Shown: positions 5,577-58,938 of the stretch, in pieces
Layout of the letters: the number at the start of each line of letters is the position of its first letter
How positions within the stretch are numbered: position 1 is the first letter of the stretch
Assembly (NCBI RefSeq): GCF_001412215.1
Contig: NZ_LLWP01000011.1
Coordinates: 62,001 to 126,000 of the forward strand
Direction: 5' to 3'
Source: Pedobacter sp. Hv1
Lineage (GTDB): Bacteria; Bacteroidota; Bacteroidia; Sphingobacteriales; Sphingobacteriaceae
DNA length: 64,000 nucleotides
Made by a program: the position numbers and the translations under genes
Notes under the pieces: generated by a model
The model's database searches: none
Seen by the model: only the letters and a program-made list of their open reading frames with translations
What the model was told of the DNA's origin: nothing

Positions 5577-5738
5577 GTTCATTTGCTCAAAGTTCATTGG
5601 TTCATTAAGTTAGTTCACTAAGCATAAGCTCATTAGGTTTAGTTCATTAATCATTGATACCAATGAACAATTGAACCATTGAACAATTGACACCAATGAA
5701 CTAATGATACTAATGAACCAATGACACCAATGAACCTA
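5577..5738. repeat. Low-complexity imperfect inverted repeat built of TTCATTGG / CCAATGAA words
   Basis: The left part is built from TTCATT(A/G)G and AGTTCA words and the right part from CCAATGAAC and TAATGAAC words, so the two halves can pair into an imperfect long hairpin. The block runs up to the stop codon of the TonB receptor gene. Related words recur at 52.76 kb. It may act as a terminator for the receptor gene; it is not coding. Confidence 0.65.
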
Positions 5739-8324
5739 AAAAGCATAACGCAATGTAGCGCCGTAAGTTCTTGGATCGCCGAGTACGCCTGCATATAGGC
5801 CAGAGTTACCTGCTGCAGCCTGTAATTGTTCGTAGTAGTTTTTATTGGCAATATTTCTGCTCCACACAAAAATTGAGAACTTTTCTGATTTGAATCCTAA
5901 TCTAGCATTCAATAACGAATAGCCATCTATGTTTAACACACGAGAAGGTGTAGGATTTGAAGAATAGCCTGAACGGTAACTTGCATCGGCAGCAATAAAA
6001 TACCGACCAGGTTTAGTAGCTAAATTACCAGCAGTACTGAGTTCGGTACCTCCAGAAACATTCCATTTAGAGATACCTGGCAACCTGCCACCAGAAGCGT
6101 CTTTAAAGGCAACCTGCGTAGCTGTTCCATTGATAGTTTCTGTATGTCCGGTTTCTTCTAAAGGCAATGGCGCATTGGTGAATTTCACATATTTACCATC
6201 AAGATAAGCTACTGCCGCATTTAAAGTTAAAAACCTTTCCAATTGATATGTTCCATCTATTTCCAGGCCTTTTACATTCACTTTTTCGGCATTGGCCAAG
6301 TAACCTCTATTTACACCTAATTGTGGCGATTGTACATTGGTTTGGTAATCTTTAATATCAGTATCAAAAGCAGTAATGTTTACAATAGCACCTTTAAATG
6401 GCTTAGTTTTAGCACCCAATTCATAATGTTGTACATATTCTGGTTTTACTACTGCTAGCGATAAATCGGCCTGCCCGTTAGTTGTTGTTGGTAAACCACC
6501 TACATTCACACCAACCGGTTTATAGGCAGTAGAGAAAGTTCCATAAACATTTAACCGATCATTTGGTCGGTATGATACCGTAATATTACCCGATAAGTTG
6601 TTGTTCTCTGTACTGGTATTAAACTGCTGGTTACTATATACAGCCGCTTTAAGAGACAATAAGGTAGCATCTGTAGTTTGCAGGCCACCATAGGTTGCTC
6701 TATCATAGTTCACATCTTTTTTATCATAGGTAAACCTTAAACCAGGTAAAACGTGTAGGTGCTTTAAAAACTCCCAATCGGCCTGTGCAAATACAGCTGT
6801 ACTTAACGATTTGATAGTAGAGTTCGTTTTAATGCCAAAACCATCTAATAAACCAGGGGTTGAATACAAGGCCTGCGTACCCGTGTTACTTGTTTGTACA
6901 AATCGCCATTGGTCTTTTCCTACTTCTTCTGTTTGGTTTAATCCTTTCAAATTCTGACTAAGTGCAAATACACCAATTACACCACTTAGTTTATCATTTA
7001 TTTGACCAGCATACCTCAGTTCTTGCGAATATTGATCGTGACGAGAATTACCTTGAGATTTAGTCAAAGCTGACAATTCTGAGAAATCTCTATCGTTTGT
7101 AGGATCCCAATTCCAGAATCGCCATGCAGTAGTAGAGGTTAATGTTCCTTTACCAATCTTGTAATCTACATTTACAGCTATACCACCAATTGATTGATTA
7201 TGTCGCCAAGGTGTATTGGTATTGATCTCTCTAGAAAAAGGGTCTATTTTAGGTTGCTGATAACCTAAATCGGTAACAATTTTAGCATATTGACGATAAG
7301 CACTTCTTTCTGTTGTAGTAACACCAGCAATAACCAATGGATAACCCGCAGGGTGCTGAATACTTACATCGCCACTTAACAACACTTGCAATTTATCTGA
7401 TGGGGTGTAATACAATTGCCCTTTAAAGCCAAGGTTATTTTGCCCACTATATTTACGTTCTTCTCTGGTGTTCCAAATTGTACCATCTCTTTGTGTACCT
7501 GAAATGGATATTTTTGCAGCAAGGTTTTTGGCTATCCCACCCGAAACTGATGTTTTGGCCTGTATAAAATTATAATTTCCAATACCTAATTCTACTTTTG
7601 CCGATGGTGTTTGTGTGGGTTTGGTAGTGGTAATGTTAAATGCACCTGCAGTAGTATTTTTACCAAATAAAGTACCTTGAGGCCCACGTATAATTTCTAT
7701 TTGTTCTATATCTAAAAAGTCTGTAGAGGTAGCAGCCGGACGAGCATGGTAAACTCCATCTACATAAAACCCAACACCGGGGTCAATACCATCGTTGGTT
7801 AAACCAAATGTTGAACCCAAACCTCTGATATTTAGTGTGGTATTTCTAGCATTTGAGGCATATAACTGTACCGAAGGAACCAATTCTTTTAAACGGTTTA
7901 CATTAAAAGCACCTGCATTTTCTGCGGCCTGTCCGCCAATAACGGTAATTGGAATAGGCACATTCTGCAATACCTCAGAGCGTCTTCTTGAGGTTACCAC
8001 AATCTGATCTAGTAATGCATCTTCAACCAGCACTAGTTCAAAAGGTGTATCCTGTAATTTTAAAATCTGAAAATCTTGAGGTTTATATCCAACTGAACTC
8101 ACTTGAAGATAAAATGGCAACTCTTGTTTGGAGTTGATGCTAAAAACACCATTATCGTCGGCACTTACAGCGATATTGGTGCCTCTTATCTTTACAGTAG
8201 CACGTGGTACCGGACTACCATTTGCACGTTTGATGATACCTGTTATGGGACTTTGCGCAAAAGCAATGTTTGCAAAAAATAAGAACAAAAAAAGAATGAA
8301 AAATGATACGTAATTGTGCTTCAT
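5736..8324 (-). CDS. TonB-dependent outer-membrane receptor without SusD partner
   Basis: An 862-residue outer-membrane transporter that imports a substrate using TonB energy. Order: signal peptide (1-24), carboxypeptidase-regulatory-like beta domain (about 25-100), TonB-box-like stretch DQIVVTSRRR (106-115), plug (about 115-230) with IEIIRGPQGTLFGKN, then the 22-strand barrel ending in aromatic YAF. The QNVPIPITVI plug entry and overall size resemble the TonB receptors abundant in sphingomonads and other Proteobacteria rather than SusC. No SusD-like gene, FecI/FecR pair or catabolic gene is adjacent; an AraC regulator is encoded upstream on the same strand. Substrate unknown. Confidence 0.9.
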   Translation of the reverse strand: MKHNYVSFFILFLFLFFANIAFAQSPITGIIKRANGSPVPRATVKIRGTNIAVSADDNGVFSINSKQELPFYLQVSSVGYKPQDFQILKLQDTPFELVLVEDALLDQIVVTSRRRSEVLQNVPIPITVIGGQAAENAGAFNVNRLKELVPSVQLYASNARNTTLNIRGLGSTFGLTNDGIDPGVGFYVDGVYHARPAATSTDFLDIEQIEIIRGPQGTLFGKNTTAGAFNITTTKPTQTPSAKVELGIGNYNFIQAKTSVSGGIAKNLAAKISISGTQRDGTIWNTREERKYSGQNNLGFKGQLYYTPSDKLQVLLSGDVSIQHPAGYPLVIAGVTTTERSAYRQYAKIVTDLGYQQPKIDPFSREINTNTPWRHNQSIGGIAVNVDYKIGKGTLTSTTAWRFWNWDPTNDRDFSELSALTKSQGNSRHDQYSQELRYAGQINDKLSGVIGVFALSQNLKGLNQTEEVGKDQWRFVQTSNTGTQALYSTPGLLDGFGIKTNSTIKSLSTAVFAQADWEFLKHLHVLPGLRFTYDKKDVNYDRATYGGLQTTDATLLSLKAAVYSNQQFNTSTENNNLSGNITVSYRPNDRLNVYGTFSTAYKPVGVNVGGLPTTTNGQADLSLAVVKPEYVQHYELGAKTKPFKGAIVNITAFDTDIKDYQTNVQSPQLGVNRGYLANAEKVNVKGLEIDGTYQLERFLTLNAAVAYLDGKYVKFTNAPLPLEETGHTETINGTATQVAFKDASGGRLPGISKWNVSGGTELSTAGNLATKPGRYFIAADASYRSGYSSNPTPSRVLNIDGYSLLNARLGFKSEKFSIFVWSRNIANKNYYEQLQAAAGNSGLYAGVLGDPRTYGATLRYAF

Positions 8325-10650: not shown

Positions 10651-11442
10651 TTATTTAGGATAAACTGAGGCAATAAATGTTTTATCGGTACTAGATAGCA
10701 CGGTATTGTTTCCAACAGAATATGTACCAATAGTTAAAGATTCTGGTACAGAATAGTGCATAATTGAAAACTTATCGTAGGCACTGTAATTGGTTTGGCC
10801 TGTGCTGTATTTTGCAAAAATATTGTTATCAACGCTGGCTTTGCTCCAATAGTTAGGAGCACCGGCATAATAGGCGTAAACTTTTGGTTTGTCCCAAGGA
10901 ATAGCAACCAATGGATGTTGGTGTTCGTGGATCATACCCAATGCATGGCCAAACTCATGAATGGTTGTGCGACTAAACTCGGCATCCGAAGTACTGCTAT
11001 TGAACCAGCCAAAGTTCATTGTTGCTTGTGATGAAGCAATAGAAAGTGCATCCTTACCTATGTAAGACCACGATCCATCGTTTGCAAAAGTTACACGAAT
11101 AGCAGCAGTATTGTCATTGGTTACAAATTGGAAATCAATATTTGCATATTTTTCCCATTCACTTGCAAATTGGATCACCTTATTGCGTACAAATGTTGTA
11201 CCTCCGTTCAAACTCACTTTGATCTTGGTTCCATTTGCCCATTGCTTTGTTTTAATAGTGGCACCTCTTGGGGTTACGCCTTCGGGATAAAGCTCGGTAC
11301 AGATATGGATATCTGCAAATTCGGGTGCATTAGCCGTAGTTTGGATTTCTGGTGTAGGCTGCTCTGTTTCTTTATCTTTCTTACAGGCAGCAAGCATAGC
11401 AACAAATGCCATTAGTAATAGCGTGGTTCTAAAGTTTTTCAT
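10651..11442 (-). CDS. Astacin-like zinc metalloprotease (M12A), lipoprotein
   Basis: 263 residues. Residues 1-20 are a lipoprotein signal with lipobox LAAC (Cys20), so the protein is probably anchored in the outer membrane or exposed at the surface. The zinc motif HEFGHALGMIHEH (162-174) matches HExxHxxGxxHE of astacins, and SIMHYS further on supplies the Met-turn with its tyrosine. The catalytic domain covers most of the mature protein with no added domains or visible propeptide. Expected to cleave extracellular proteins or peptides. Flanked upstream by the dispersed-repeat region. Confidence 0.9.
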   Translation of the reverse strand: MKNFRTTLLLMAFVAMLAACKKDKETEQPTPEIQTTANAPEFADIHICTELYPEGVTPRGATIKTKQWANGTKIKVSLNGGTTFVRNKVIQFASEWEKYANIDFQFVTNDNTAAIRVTFANDGSWSYIGKDALSIASSQATMNFGWFNSSTSDAEFSRTTIHEFGHALGMIHEHQHPLVAIPWDKPKVYAYYAGAPNYWSKASVDNNIFAKYSTGQTNYSAYDKFSIMHYSVPESLTIGTYSVGNNTVLSSTDKTFIASVYPK

Positions 11443-11823
11443 AATTTTTGTTTTAAAATTTTAGGTTAGTTAAGTTTTAGTACATTATTAATAGATGGTT
11501 ATTATTAAAAGTAGCGGTTTCAAGTTAGAATACGGCAAATAAGGGGATCCTTTCTACCGGAATAGTTGGGTTTGTATGCATAAAATATAGAATTAGTAGA
11601 TAATACACAACTATGTTACATAAATAGCCATAACAATATTTGCTTATATCAAAACTAATTGTTAAAAAATCTTTTCTTTTAGTGATTTCATCCTTTTTAT
11701 ATTGAAAATCATCCAAAGGCAGTTCAATGCTATTTAAAGGGGTATTTTAACAGAAAACAAAATATATTTTCACAAAAAAAGCGAAATACCATATTTAATA
11801 TTATTTATTGTATTAGAGAAAGG
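11443..11823. other. AT-rich intergenic DNA upstream of the astacin-like gene
   Basis: About 380 bp with no supported gene. A 63-codon open frame at 11525-11716 on the minus strand has neither signal nor family resemblance. It presumably contains the protease promoter, but no clear TAnnTTTG box was found. Confidence 0.5.
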
Positions 11824-12059
11824 CTTAGGAAAGCAGGTTTCCATTCTCTTTTAAAGTTAGTTGGGCTTTACATTCCCGTTTAGCGAACACAGGTCTATGC
11901 TACTATTTAGGGTTGTAGTACGCCAAGAACCGCTGGCTTTGTGATATAAACCTGATTGGAGTGGATGCCGATTTTTCTTCGGTAGCAACGAAAAGCAGGA
12001 CAGGACTAAGCTAAGAACTACTGATATTGTTTTTCTGAAACCTCCATAAATATGATTTT
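11824..12059 (+). repeat. Dispersed intergenic repeat, copy 1 (internally deleted)
   Basis: Begins TTAGGAAAGCAGGTTT and ends with a tail (AAGAACTACTGATATTG, then ATAAATATGATTT) shared with the copies at 58 kb. Compared with the other copies it lacks about 44 bp after GGGCTTTACATTCC, at about 11876, which in the others forms a hairpin. About 236 bp long. Confidence 0.85.
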
Positions 12060-12072
12060 TCCTTTATAAGAA

Positions 12073-12336
12073 TTCTGGAAAGCAGGTTGCTGCATGCTTT
12101 TTAATGTTAGTCGGGCTTTACATTCCAATCTTTTTCTGCTTCGCAACAAAAAGGATTTTCATTGCAATCCCGTTTATAGAACGCGGGGCTATGCTATTAT
12201 TTAAGTTACTTTTGCCAAGAACCAATAACTTTGTAAAATAAACCTGATTGGAGTGAATGCCGATTTTTCTTCGGCAGAAACGAAAAGCAGGGCTGAATAG
12301 ACCGAAGAGCCACTAACAATGTTTTTCAAAAACTCA
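12073..12336 (+). repeat. Dispersed intergenic repeat, copy 2
   Basis: About 264 bp, same orientation as copy 1. Contains in order GGAAAGCAGGTT, GTCGGGCTTTACATTCC, the hairpin module (CTTTTTCTGC with GCAACAAAAAGG), CAATCCCGTTTAT, GCCAAGAACC, AACCTGATTGGAGTG and the small hairpin GCCGA-N7-TCGGC. Very similar to copy 3. Confidence 0.9.
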
Positions 12337-12348
12337 TTAGCTAAGGGT

Positions 12349-12613
12349 TTAGGAAAGCAAGTTTCTACGTGCTTTTTAAAGTTAGCCGGGCTTTACATTC
12401 CAATCTTTTTGTGCTTCGCAACAAAAAGGATTTTCATTGCAATCCCGTTTATAGAACGCGGGACTATGCTATTATTTAAGTTGCTTTTGCCAAGAACCAA
12501 TGACTTTGTAAAATAAACCTGATTGGAGTGGATGCCGATTTTTCTTCGGCAGCAACAAAAAGCAGGGTTGAATAGACCGAAGCACCACTAACAATGTTTT
12601 CCTAAAACTCAAT
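12349..12613 (+). repeat. Dispersed intergenic repeat, copy 3
   Basis: About 265 bp, nearly the same as copy 2 over its whole length including the CTTTTTGTGC/GCAACAAAAAGG hairpin and the GCCGA/TCGGC hairpin. It ends about 30 bp before the guaB terminator. Confidence 0.9.
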
Positions 12614-12640
12614 AAGTAGGATTTATATATGAAAACAAAA

Positions 12641-12669
12641 AGCGGAGCTATCGTAACCGATGCCCCGCT
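12641..12669 (-). terminator. Terminator of guaB
   Basis: Read on the minus strand, AGCGGGGC pairs with GCtCCGCT across a loop and is followed by TTTTTG, just after the guaB stop codon. Confidence 0.7.
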
Positions 12670-12694: not shown

Positions 12695-14212
<1,518 letters not shown>

Positions 14213-58236: not shown

Positions 58237-58274
58237 GCACAAACAATTTGCTTTACTGAATTCTTACTAACAGC

Positions 58275-58554
58275 AAATCATATTTATAGAAATTTCAGAA
58301 AAACAGTGTCAGTAGTTCTTAGGTAGGCTAGCCCCGCTTTCCACTCCTGCCGAAGAAAATCGGCATCCGCTCCAATCAGGTTTATATCACAAAGCCACAG
58401 GTTCTTGGCATACTGCAGCCCTAAATAGTTGCACAGACCTGCATATACTAAACGGGATTGTAATGGAAATCCTTTTTGTTGCCAAGCACAAAAAGATTGG
58501 AATGTAAAGCCCGACTAACGTTAAAAAGCACACAACAACCTGCTTTCCCGAATC
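58275..58554 (-). repeat. Dispersed intergenic repeat, copy 4
   Basis: About 280 bp, opposite orientation to the copies at 12 kb. Read on the minus strand it has the same order of blocks: GGAAAGCAGGTTG, GTCGGGCTTTACATTCC, the TTTTTGTGC/GCAACAAAAAGG hairpin, CAATCCCGTTTA, GCCAAGAACC, AACCTGATTGGAGCGG and GCCGA/TCGGC. Nearly identical to copy 5, period 292 bp. Confidence 0.9.
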
Positions 58555-58566
58555 TCTTCTAGTCAC

Positions 58567-58846
58567 AAATCATATTTATAGAAATTTCAGAAAAACAGTG
58601 TCAGTAGTTCTTAGGTAGGTCTAGCCCCGCTTTCCACTCCTGCCGAAGAAAAATCGGCATCCGCTCCAATCAGGTTTATATTACCAAGCAAGCAGTTCTT
58701 GGCATACTGCAGCCCTAAATAGTTGCACAGACCTGCATATACTAAACGGGATTGCAATGGAAATCCTTTTTGTTGCCAAGCACAAAAAGATTGGAATGTA
58801 AAGCCCGACTAACGTTAAAAAGCACACAACAACCTGCTTTCCCGAA
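58567..58846 (-). repeat. Dispersed intergenic repeat, copy 5
   Basis: About 280 bp, tandem copy of the previous one with few differences (for example TACCAAGCAAGCAGTTC in place of TCACAAAGCCACAGGTTC). On the plus strand its leading edge AAATCATATTTATAG is the same as that of copy 4. Confidence 0.9.
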
Positions 58847-58860
58847 TCTCTTCTAGTCAC

Positions 58861-58890
58861 AAATCATATTTATAGAAATTTCAGAAAAAC
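58861..58890 (-). repeat. Truncated sixth repeat edge
   Basis: AAATCATATTTATAG and the next 15 bp are identical to the same edge of copies 4 and 5, then the similarity stops. Marks the end of an incomplete tandem unit. Confidence 0.8.
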
Positions 58891-58938
58891 TATATCAGCA
58901 CTTCTTTGGTCAGTAGATCAGATTTGTGTTTAGTACAA

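Follow-up and report, generated by a model that had tools for sequence, protein, structure and literature searches.

The window analysed here, a stretch of 64,000 nucleotides from the genome of Pedobacter sp. Hv1, harbours five tandem repeat units, three at 11825-12606 (locus 1) and two in the opposite orientation at 58294-58846 (locus 2), as an earlier sequence-only reading had described and as coordinates and profile matches agree. Each unit consists of two inverted half-modules around a linker of about 53 nt, and within each half a foot of the form TAxxC before a hairpin covaries with an end of the form GCxxT about 29 nt after it, the xx bases being Watson-Crick partners (AA:TT, GC:GC or GA:TC). 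The core of the module is known (Flavo-1: PMC2864571, PMC9723704, PMC9029176), and the foot/end rule, to judge from the literature consulted, is new. We tentatively favour a reading of the units as a REP/BIME-like family of paired palindromic elements, old and retained, which would act as folded single-stranded DNA.

Locus 1 occupies the spacer between two genes of the minus strand that we take to be guaB (12695-14164) and an astacin-like gene (10651-11442), and locus 2 (58.29-58.85 kb) is flanked by a 531-aa ORF and, convergent with it, a tsaB-like ORF; the names guaB, tsaB, rnpA and astacin are presumptive, in part those of the sequence-only reading, and do not come from a family search. At locus 1 the units start 292-294 nt and 275 nt apart (250 nt for the block past the deletion that removed most of the large hairpin of unit 1), and unit 2 shares 92% identity with unit 3 over 273 nt. 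A half-module profile (R1, a covariance model built from 34 copies picked for short loops, with a structure set after covariation had been seen) finds nine halves and one truncated half in the window, all within loci 1 and 2, and no further halves beyond these loci (next match E = 0.78; Table 1). The hairpin module and the smaller GCCGA/TCGGC hairpin of the sequence-only reading are both present, the former mostly lost from unit 1, but they are not separate elements: they are inverted versions of one module, and self-comparison agrees. Nor do the units lack terminal inverted repeats, which had been thought not obvious; short and imperfect ones are present, in unit 3 TTTAGGAAAGC ... GTTTTCCTAAA, where the arms (12348-12374 and 12580-12606) are 70% complementary. 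At locus 2, partial units flank the unit pair on both sides.

Table 1 Repeat units, half-modules and remnants in the window
Feature	Position in window	Strand	Basis
Unit 3, two inverted Flavo-1 half-modules with terminal inverted repeats	12348..12606	-	ends by eye
Unit 3 half A: foot TAAAC, Flavo-1 hairpin, spacer, end GCTTTCC	12345..12456	-	R1 87.4 bits; RF01705 12380-12454, 58.4 bits
Unit 3 half B: foot TAAAC, short hairpin GCCGA/TCGGC, end GTTTTCC	12509..12609	+	R1 68.2 bits; RF01705 30.4 bits, below gathering
Unit 2	12073..12333	-	R1 profile; ends by eye
Unit 2 half A	12070..12181	-	R1 86.8 bits; RF01705 58.7 bits
Unit 2 half B	12234..12334	+	R1 73.4 bits; RF01705 33.0 bits, below gathering
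Unit 1, half A hairpin mostly deleted	11825..12040	-	ends by eye
Unit 1 truncated half A	11821..11887	-	R1 29.2 bits
Unit 1 half B	11942..12042	+	R1 73.8 bits; RF01705 35.8 bits, below gathering
Locus 2 unit a	58294..58552	+	R1 profile; ends by eye
Locus 2 unit a half A	58444..58555	+	R1 86.8 bits; RF01705 63.4 bits
Locus 2 unit a half B	58291..58389	-	R1 62.3 bits
Locus 2 unit b	58586..58846	+	R1 profile; ends by eye
Locus 2 unit b half A	58738..58849	+	R1 87.3 bits; RF01705 62.9 bits
Locus 2 unit b half B	58583..58683	-	R1 71.2 bits
Remnant, right unit end, before unit a	58246..58262	+	by eye vs unit junction
Remnant, left unit end, after unit b	58874..58910	+	blastn to unit positions 1-37, 84% identity, E = 6e-4

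An Rfam search placed RF01705 (Flavo-1; Weinberg 2010) in four of the five units, at half A hairpins scoring 58.4-63.4 bits against a gathering cut-off of 42; in every unit of locus 1 it also matches the smaller hairpin weakly, on the opposite strand (30.4-35.8 bits, below gathering). The GCCGA/TCGGC hairpin is thus a Flavo-1 module too, shorter and oppositely oriented. The sequence-only reading had named an Rfam match as evidence against itself, and RF01705 is such a match; its statement that the repeat is undescribed remains true of the unit as a whole and fails for the core. The hairpin is the same in both cases, but the Rfam model represents a single 76-nt hairpin as RNA, and inverted pairing, outer ends, spacer and foot/end pairs are absent from its consensus structure.

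The half-module spans about 110-210 nt and comprises the foot TAxxC, a hairpin with a variable loop, a spacer of near-fixed length and unconstrained sequence, and the end GCxxTCCAAAA. Conservation sets in some 17 nt ahead of the foot, reaches about 12 nt into the end motif and falls off beyond that point, and the length of the spacer differs among lineages. A type II variant, identified by eye (L279, L318, L413), has a longer foot/end pairing (GCRTG/CAYGC or similar) and a side hairpin in the spacer. Genes that we take from their sequence to be UvrA-like and MFS-like adjoin top-scoring Flavo-1 copies in five genomes (L278, L279, L061, L062, L064); this site is old and retained, and is of type II where read (L279). 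The hairpin loops can themselves hold further sequence: an inverted pair of about 60 nt (TGTCATGCTGAGGCACGAAGCATCTG ... its complement) is present in one of two sister species and absent or replaced in the other (L352 and L348 of genome G061 against L295, L327 and L344 of genome G136), and other loops carry other palindromes. Flavo-1 loops act as landing sites for REP-like repeats.

The foot/end rule can be seen at 55 sites of G136 chosen by their Flavo-1 matches, where the bases before the hairpin are mostly TAAAC or TAGCC and the stretch after it often ends in GCTTTCCAAAA or GCGCTCCAAAA at a near-fixed distance. With the inner end bases masked, 51 of the 55 have a usable end, which is AA:TT in 30, GC:GC in 12 and GA:TC in one, with eight unfitting in the masked register. 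In a larger set of 210 R1 hits, 193 were kept and 17 dropped for a gap at the foot or hairpin base or as duplicates; their feet are TAAAC in 156, TAGCC in 25 and others in 12. Masked placement gave a clear end in 138 of the 193, with both pairs Watson-Crick in 118 and not in 20, against a mean of 80.8 and a maximum of 91 in 2000 shuffles. The fitting copies divide into AA:TT (95), GC:GC (20) and GA:TC (3), and the combinations AA:GC and GC:TT do not occur among the 138 clear copies. In 18 of the 20 unfitting copies a foot AA faces AT, CT or GT in the masked register, and those inspected are one-base register shifts that retain TTT; the remaining two depart from the rule by a single base (GA:CC and AC:GC). 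The end motif starts 28-31 nt after the hairpin in 135 of 142 copies.

The covariation acts in cis. Among 48 outward pairs examined, 11 combine halves of different foot class (eight of them from G136), and in these mixed units 19 of 22 halves match their own end and none of the 22 its partner's, the covarying end bases having been masked here as in the placement test. Shared ancestry is thus not the cause of the covariation, and the rule holds within the module, not within the element or the lineage. In genome G056, from another family of the class, the 15 best-scoring of 32 hits all have TAGCC, the hairpin and an AGCT end about 5 nt on (by eye); these copies form one foot class, and the rule is therefore displayed there without covariation.

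Paired compensatory changes, which the sequence-only reading had proposed as a mark of structured RNA, turned out to be abundant in alignment A1. Of the 340 cells for ten named pairs, 99.1% are standard; nine of the ten pairs have changes on both sides, and the covariation score was reached by none of 500 shuffles, partners slid out of register being 29-58% paired; one of five measures (further pair types) was matched by 30 of 500 shuffles. Alignments A2 and A3 were fitted to R1, so that their counts lean to pairs: 1937 cells are Watson-Crick (97%), 38 G-U (1.9%), 10 A-C and 11 other.

Paired bases also change slowly in place, as seen between the sister species G136 and G061, whose aligned stretches are mostly 93-97% identical and in which 51 of 63 G136 halves have an aligned orthologue. 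Substitutions affect 2/298 positions in foot/end pairs and 25/700 in hairpin pairs, against 142/2019 in the terminal loop and upper stem, 63/1017 in the rest of the module, 141/1553 in the spacer and 588/5896 (10%) in the flank; the spacer is thus substituted as fast as the flank, though its length is kept. One-sided changes gave 9 G-U and 7 A-C with no strand preference, and one locus (L295/L352) shows a clean compensatory change from T-A to C-G. Most G061 windows were chosen because of a hit; in the subset of 20-kb windows free of that selection, foot/end pairs changed in 0/48, hairpin pairs in 8/111 and flank in 94/956, so that in the least-biased subset the foot/end constraint stands and hairpin pairs are not clearly slower than flank. 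Such slow change implies that copies are still read by something, or that defective copies were lost or missed. GNA internal loops had seemed conserved in the alignment and were considered as a conserved contact; this candidate was rejected, as the 5' internal loops changed at 23/297 positions between the sisters, like flank.

The family extends well beyond the two loci to which, had the sequence-only reading been wrong, its copies would have been limited. In the source genome (4.9 Mb, 23 contigs) a BLAST search with one unit gave 27 matches, the RF01705 model 43, with 23 above the gathering cut-off (four of them in the window), and R1 at least 86 halves at 50 loci, a floor since 150 of 2794 candidates were scored. 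With 150 candidates scored per genome, G136 and G061 hold at least 143 and at least 137 halves. Neighbouring halves within 300 nt of each other in the source genome are mainly outward (-,+; 23 pairs, with a linker of 51-55 nt in 18), followed by (+,-) in 10, (++) in 2 and (--) in 1; 46 of the 86 halves are in outward pairs and 40 are not. Among 63 sites with both neighbours, 39 lie in tandem, 18 in convergent and 6 in divergent spacers, solo halves in tandem spacers run 15 with and 6 against the direction of the genes, and five sites overlap an ORF of at least 90 aa in a simple ORF scan. There is no replichore strand bias among 78 solo halves of G136 (13/14 vs 26/25, with the origin assumed at the contig start). 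No phage matches were found, and the plasmid matches amount to a single 61-nt stretch, 81% like the hairpin, on the Paraclostridium plasmid NZ_CP079741.1 (6931-6991).

Genus-wide, 86 of 145 genomes, source included, have an R1 match and 59 have none (26 candidates scored per genome under strict filters). Of 35 other genus genomes searched first, 20 carry Flavo-1 and 15 do not; guaB identity to the source is 80-84% in 19 of the 20 carriers and 74-76% in 14 of the 15 others, the exceptions being G022 (83%, none) and G015 (74%, two matches). In the larger genus set G123 and G165, with guaB identities of 72% and 70%, have 22 and 16 R1 matches. From these identities and matches we conclude that the family resides mainly, not only, in one subclade.

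Occupancy of individual sites depends on the species. Among 29 orthologous loci of locus 2, R1 has no match at E up to 0.01; in four of them a TsaB match still follows the 531-aa gene, at a gap (tblastn ends) of about 35 nt (L376), 100 nt (L377), 12 nt (L379) and 1.4 kb (L382), compared with 702 nt in the source. The occupied spacer as against the short spacers of three relatives fits an insertion. After guaB, 7 of 29 orthologous loci carry a half, always antisense to guaB, which overlaps a conserved terminator-like hairpin in six and lies beyond it in L266; the unit profile has no match after guaB in 14 named Pedobacter or Nubsella loci. In the window the terminator-like hairpin is at 12635-12665 (GCGGGGCATCGGTTACGATAGCCCCGC), and the antisense Flavo-1 overlap occurs in L250-L252, L255, L268 and L269; the guaB terminator may be derived from an old module. 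For window segment 8298-12690, which holds the genes that look AraC-like, outer-membrane-like and astacin-like, blastn gives hardly any match in the loci of the 14 relatives; there guaB is mostly followed, after about 0.4-1.4 kb, by the gene at 5737-8297.

Most sites compared are common to G136 and G061. Occupancy differs at two (L296/L355 and L367/L362), each with other sequence in place, so that no target duplication could be read there, and no clean empty site with a target duplication was found among the sites compared. Clean insertion in empty sites of relatives, by which mobility was to be recognized according to the sequence-only reading, was accordingly not seen; the short spacers at locus 2 fit insertion. 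In G061 a 449-aa ORF (L349:10230-11901) replaces the left half of a paired unit of G136 (L326:669-943). Array copy number differs between the sisters at several sites, e.g. L306/L307, and one hit at G136 3714545 corresponds to two in G061 (C2 229259/229559; matched by position, unaligned). Tandem neighbours can be nearly identical (97% at locus 2), and copies at different loci are at most about 88% alike in the source genome and samples of five others, with one exception, a 1.6-kb segmental duplicate including flanks in G136 (L282/L284); this duplicate apart, recent dispersal was not seen in the sampled genomes. The near-identity of tandem neighbours and the ceiling between loci together imply that arrays grow locally and that the dispersal seen is old.

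No transposase was recognized by eye beside the elements in the 25 largest ORF clusters (729 ORFs from 182 partly overlapping loci). In 51 Y1_Tnp loci (186 kb) R1 hits occur in four, either at the locus edge or separated from the gene by at least about 1 kb, and 20 regions around long Y1 genes contain one Flavo-1, about 1 kb off. In genome G049 an IS200-type gene with YIKNQKVHH is preceded, at about 190 nt, by a weak type-II-like Flavo-1 hairpin (L106:1408-2150). REP-type Y1 genes of Pedobacter (motif Y..xNP) have their own short palindrome family within 300 nt in 12 of 21 cases, different from gene to gene (L059, L120, L122, L124, L126-L128, L130, L132, L135-L137), and no repeated palindromes were found beside the remaining nine. 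A RAYT as the mover was therefore rejected for the loci examined, since Flavo-1 is nearly absent from RAYT regions and other palindromes stand beside the gene in 12 of 21. G044 and G050, Flavo-1-bearing genomes outside the genus, lack a Y1_Tnp match. Co-occurrence of Flavo-1 and long Y1_Tnp genes in the 35 genus genomes was likewise dismissed as a functional link; it follows clade, because guaB identity splits carriers from non-carriers.

The three readings offered from the sequence alone, nonautonomous mobile DNA, a structured RNA and a nucleoid or recombination site, are together supported in part: the locus 2 spacers fit insertion and compensatory changes are abundant, and halves on both strands together with rare G-U pairs speak against a plain RNA. 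A structured RNA seems to us unlikely, though it deserves serious attention; it would be an sRNA or a 3'-UTR element with the foot/end pairs as part of its fold, and the repeats would be spread copies of an RNA gene or UTR module. RF01705 is typed as an sRNA in Rfam, Flavo-1 is rated a probable RNA in PMC2864571, and the account of it in a 2022 review lists it among the most abundant bacterial sRNA families, with no function given (PMC9029176). The strong compensatory changes, the slow change of paired bases in resident copies, the position mostly after genes, with the 15 to 6 excess of solo halves in gene direction, and the preponderance of G-U over A-C (38 to 10 on the Flavo-1 strand, in alignments fitted to the model) would also suit an RNA. 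However, paired units have a half on each strand, G-U makes up just 1.9% of cells, one-sided sister changes (9 G-U and 7 A-C) reveal no strand preference, and a helix of three pairs that had to close across a hairpin plus about 29 free nt would scarcely be stable by itself; according to PMC9723704, Flavo-1 copies of F. psychrophilum are sense or antisense to transcribed regions without order, and many lie outside them.

A chromosomal site for protein binding or topology, kept by the host whatever its origin, as BIMEs bind gyrase, IHF or Pol I, is a less probable account still. It would explain slow change at resident loci, intergenic positions with few in divergent spacers, and the paired inverted layout with a near-fixed linker, but it has no need for covarying single-strand pairs across about 29 free nt, and the 59 genus genomes without a match in the survey indicate that the element is dispensable to the host. 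Least credible, and very improbable in our view, is a MITE of a DDE transposon with short terminal inverted repeats and incidental hairpins. Inverted repeats of the type TTTTGGAAAGC/GCTTTCCAAAA, a length of 250-290 nt and the occupied as against short spacers at locus 2 are what such an element would have. Nevertheless, 40 of 86 halves lie outside any outward pair, no target duplication was seen at the sites compared, none of which is cleanly empty, and the ends of mixed units differ in the very bases of the would-be inverted repeats, each following its own foot, so that the mixed-unit test already disfavours a MITE.

The reading as a REP/BIME-like family of folded single-stranded DNA agrees with several features of known systems. 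The units are multicopy intergenic palindromes, found solo and in inverted pairs, and share with REP, BIME and REPIN elements their clusters, tandem arrays and a guide directly 5' of the hairpin, as far as the descriptions in PMC6006769 and PMC3733652 go. In contrast to the REP/BIME foot GT[AG]G, Flavo-1 halves have TAAAC or TAGCC, the module is longer, with internal loops and a conserved end motif about 29 nt away, and it does not flank a cognate RAYT gene, 12 of 21 REP-type Y1 genes adjoining other palindromes. With the ends of IS200/IS605 (Y1 HUH) elements, as presented in PMC6006769, it has in common a hairpin, a guide at its 5' foot and a 3' motif that pairs with the guide, the end presumably being the cleavage site; there the cleavage site interacts with a tetranucleotide guide located 5' of the hairpin foot, the REP guide sits at the same place, and a Bacteroidetes RAYT subclass (2.6) is flanked by "atypical secondary structures". 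Unlike IS200/IS605, Flavo-1 has no transposase that we could find between or beside modules, forms inverted pairs and shows no replication strand bias. An orientation bias with respect to replication is typical of IS200/IS605. No description of paired Flavo-1 units or of a foot/end rule was found in the literature consulted on Flavo-1, RAYT/REPIN and Pedobacter or Flavobacterium repeats.

On the favoured reading, which rests on anatomical analogy with IS200/IS605 and REP ends, a Y1-type HUH enzyme, or another single-strand nuclease, would bind the hairpin and be shown the cut position by the foot acting as guide. Two modules placed back to back would make a unit with outward ends, an old single-strand transposition may have spread the family, unequal exchange could then have built local tandem arrays, and resident copies would remain under constraint. 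Counted against a single-stranded DNA element are the slow change of resident copies, more than a dead transposon needs, the dependence of spacer length on lineage, and the lack of an adjoining transposase, of replichore bias, of recent dispersal and of a clean empty site. A bolder proposal, possible although we lean against it, is that Flavo-1, rather than being a family of RNAs, serves as recognition module for a so far unrecognised single-stranded DNA system in Bacteroidota, with a guide/end spacer set by lineage and two-ended units of independently evolving halves, kept working by a non-RAYT enzyme.

Should Flavo-1 prove to be folded DNA that carries a guide and an end resembling a cut site, many sequences annotated as "sRNAs" in Bacteroidota would be something else, and the guide rule would give a direct, mutable prediction. 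The palindrome-collecting loops, moreover, make the modules landing sites for further elements.
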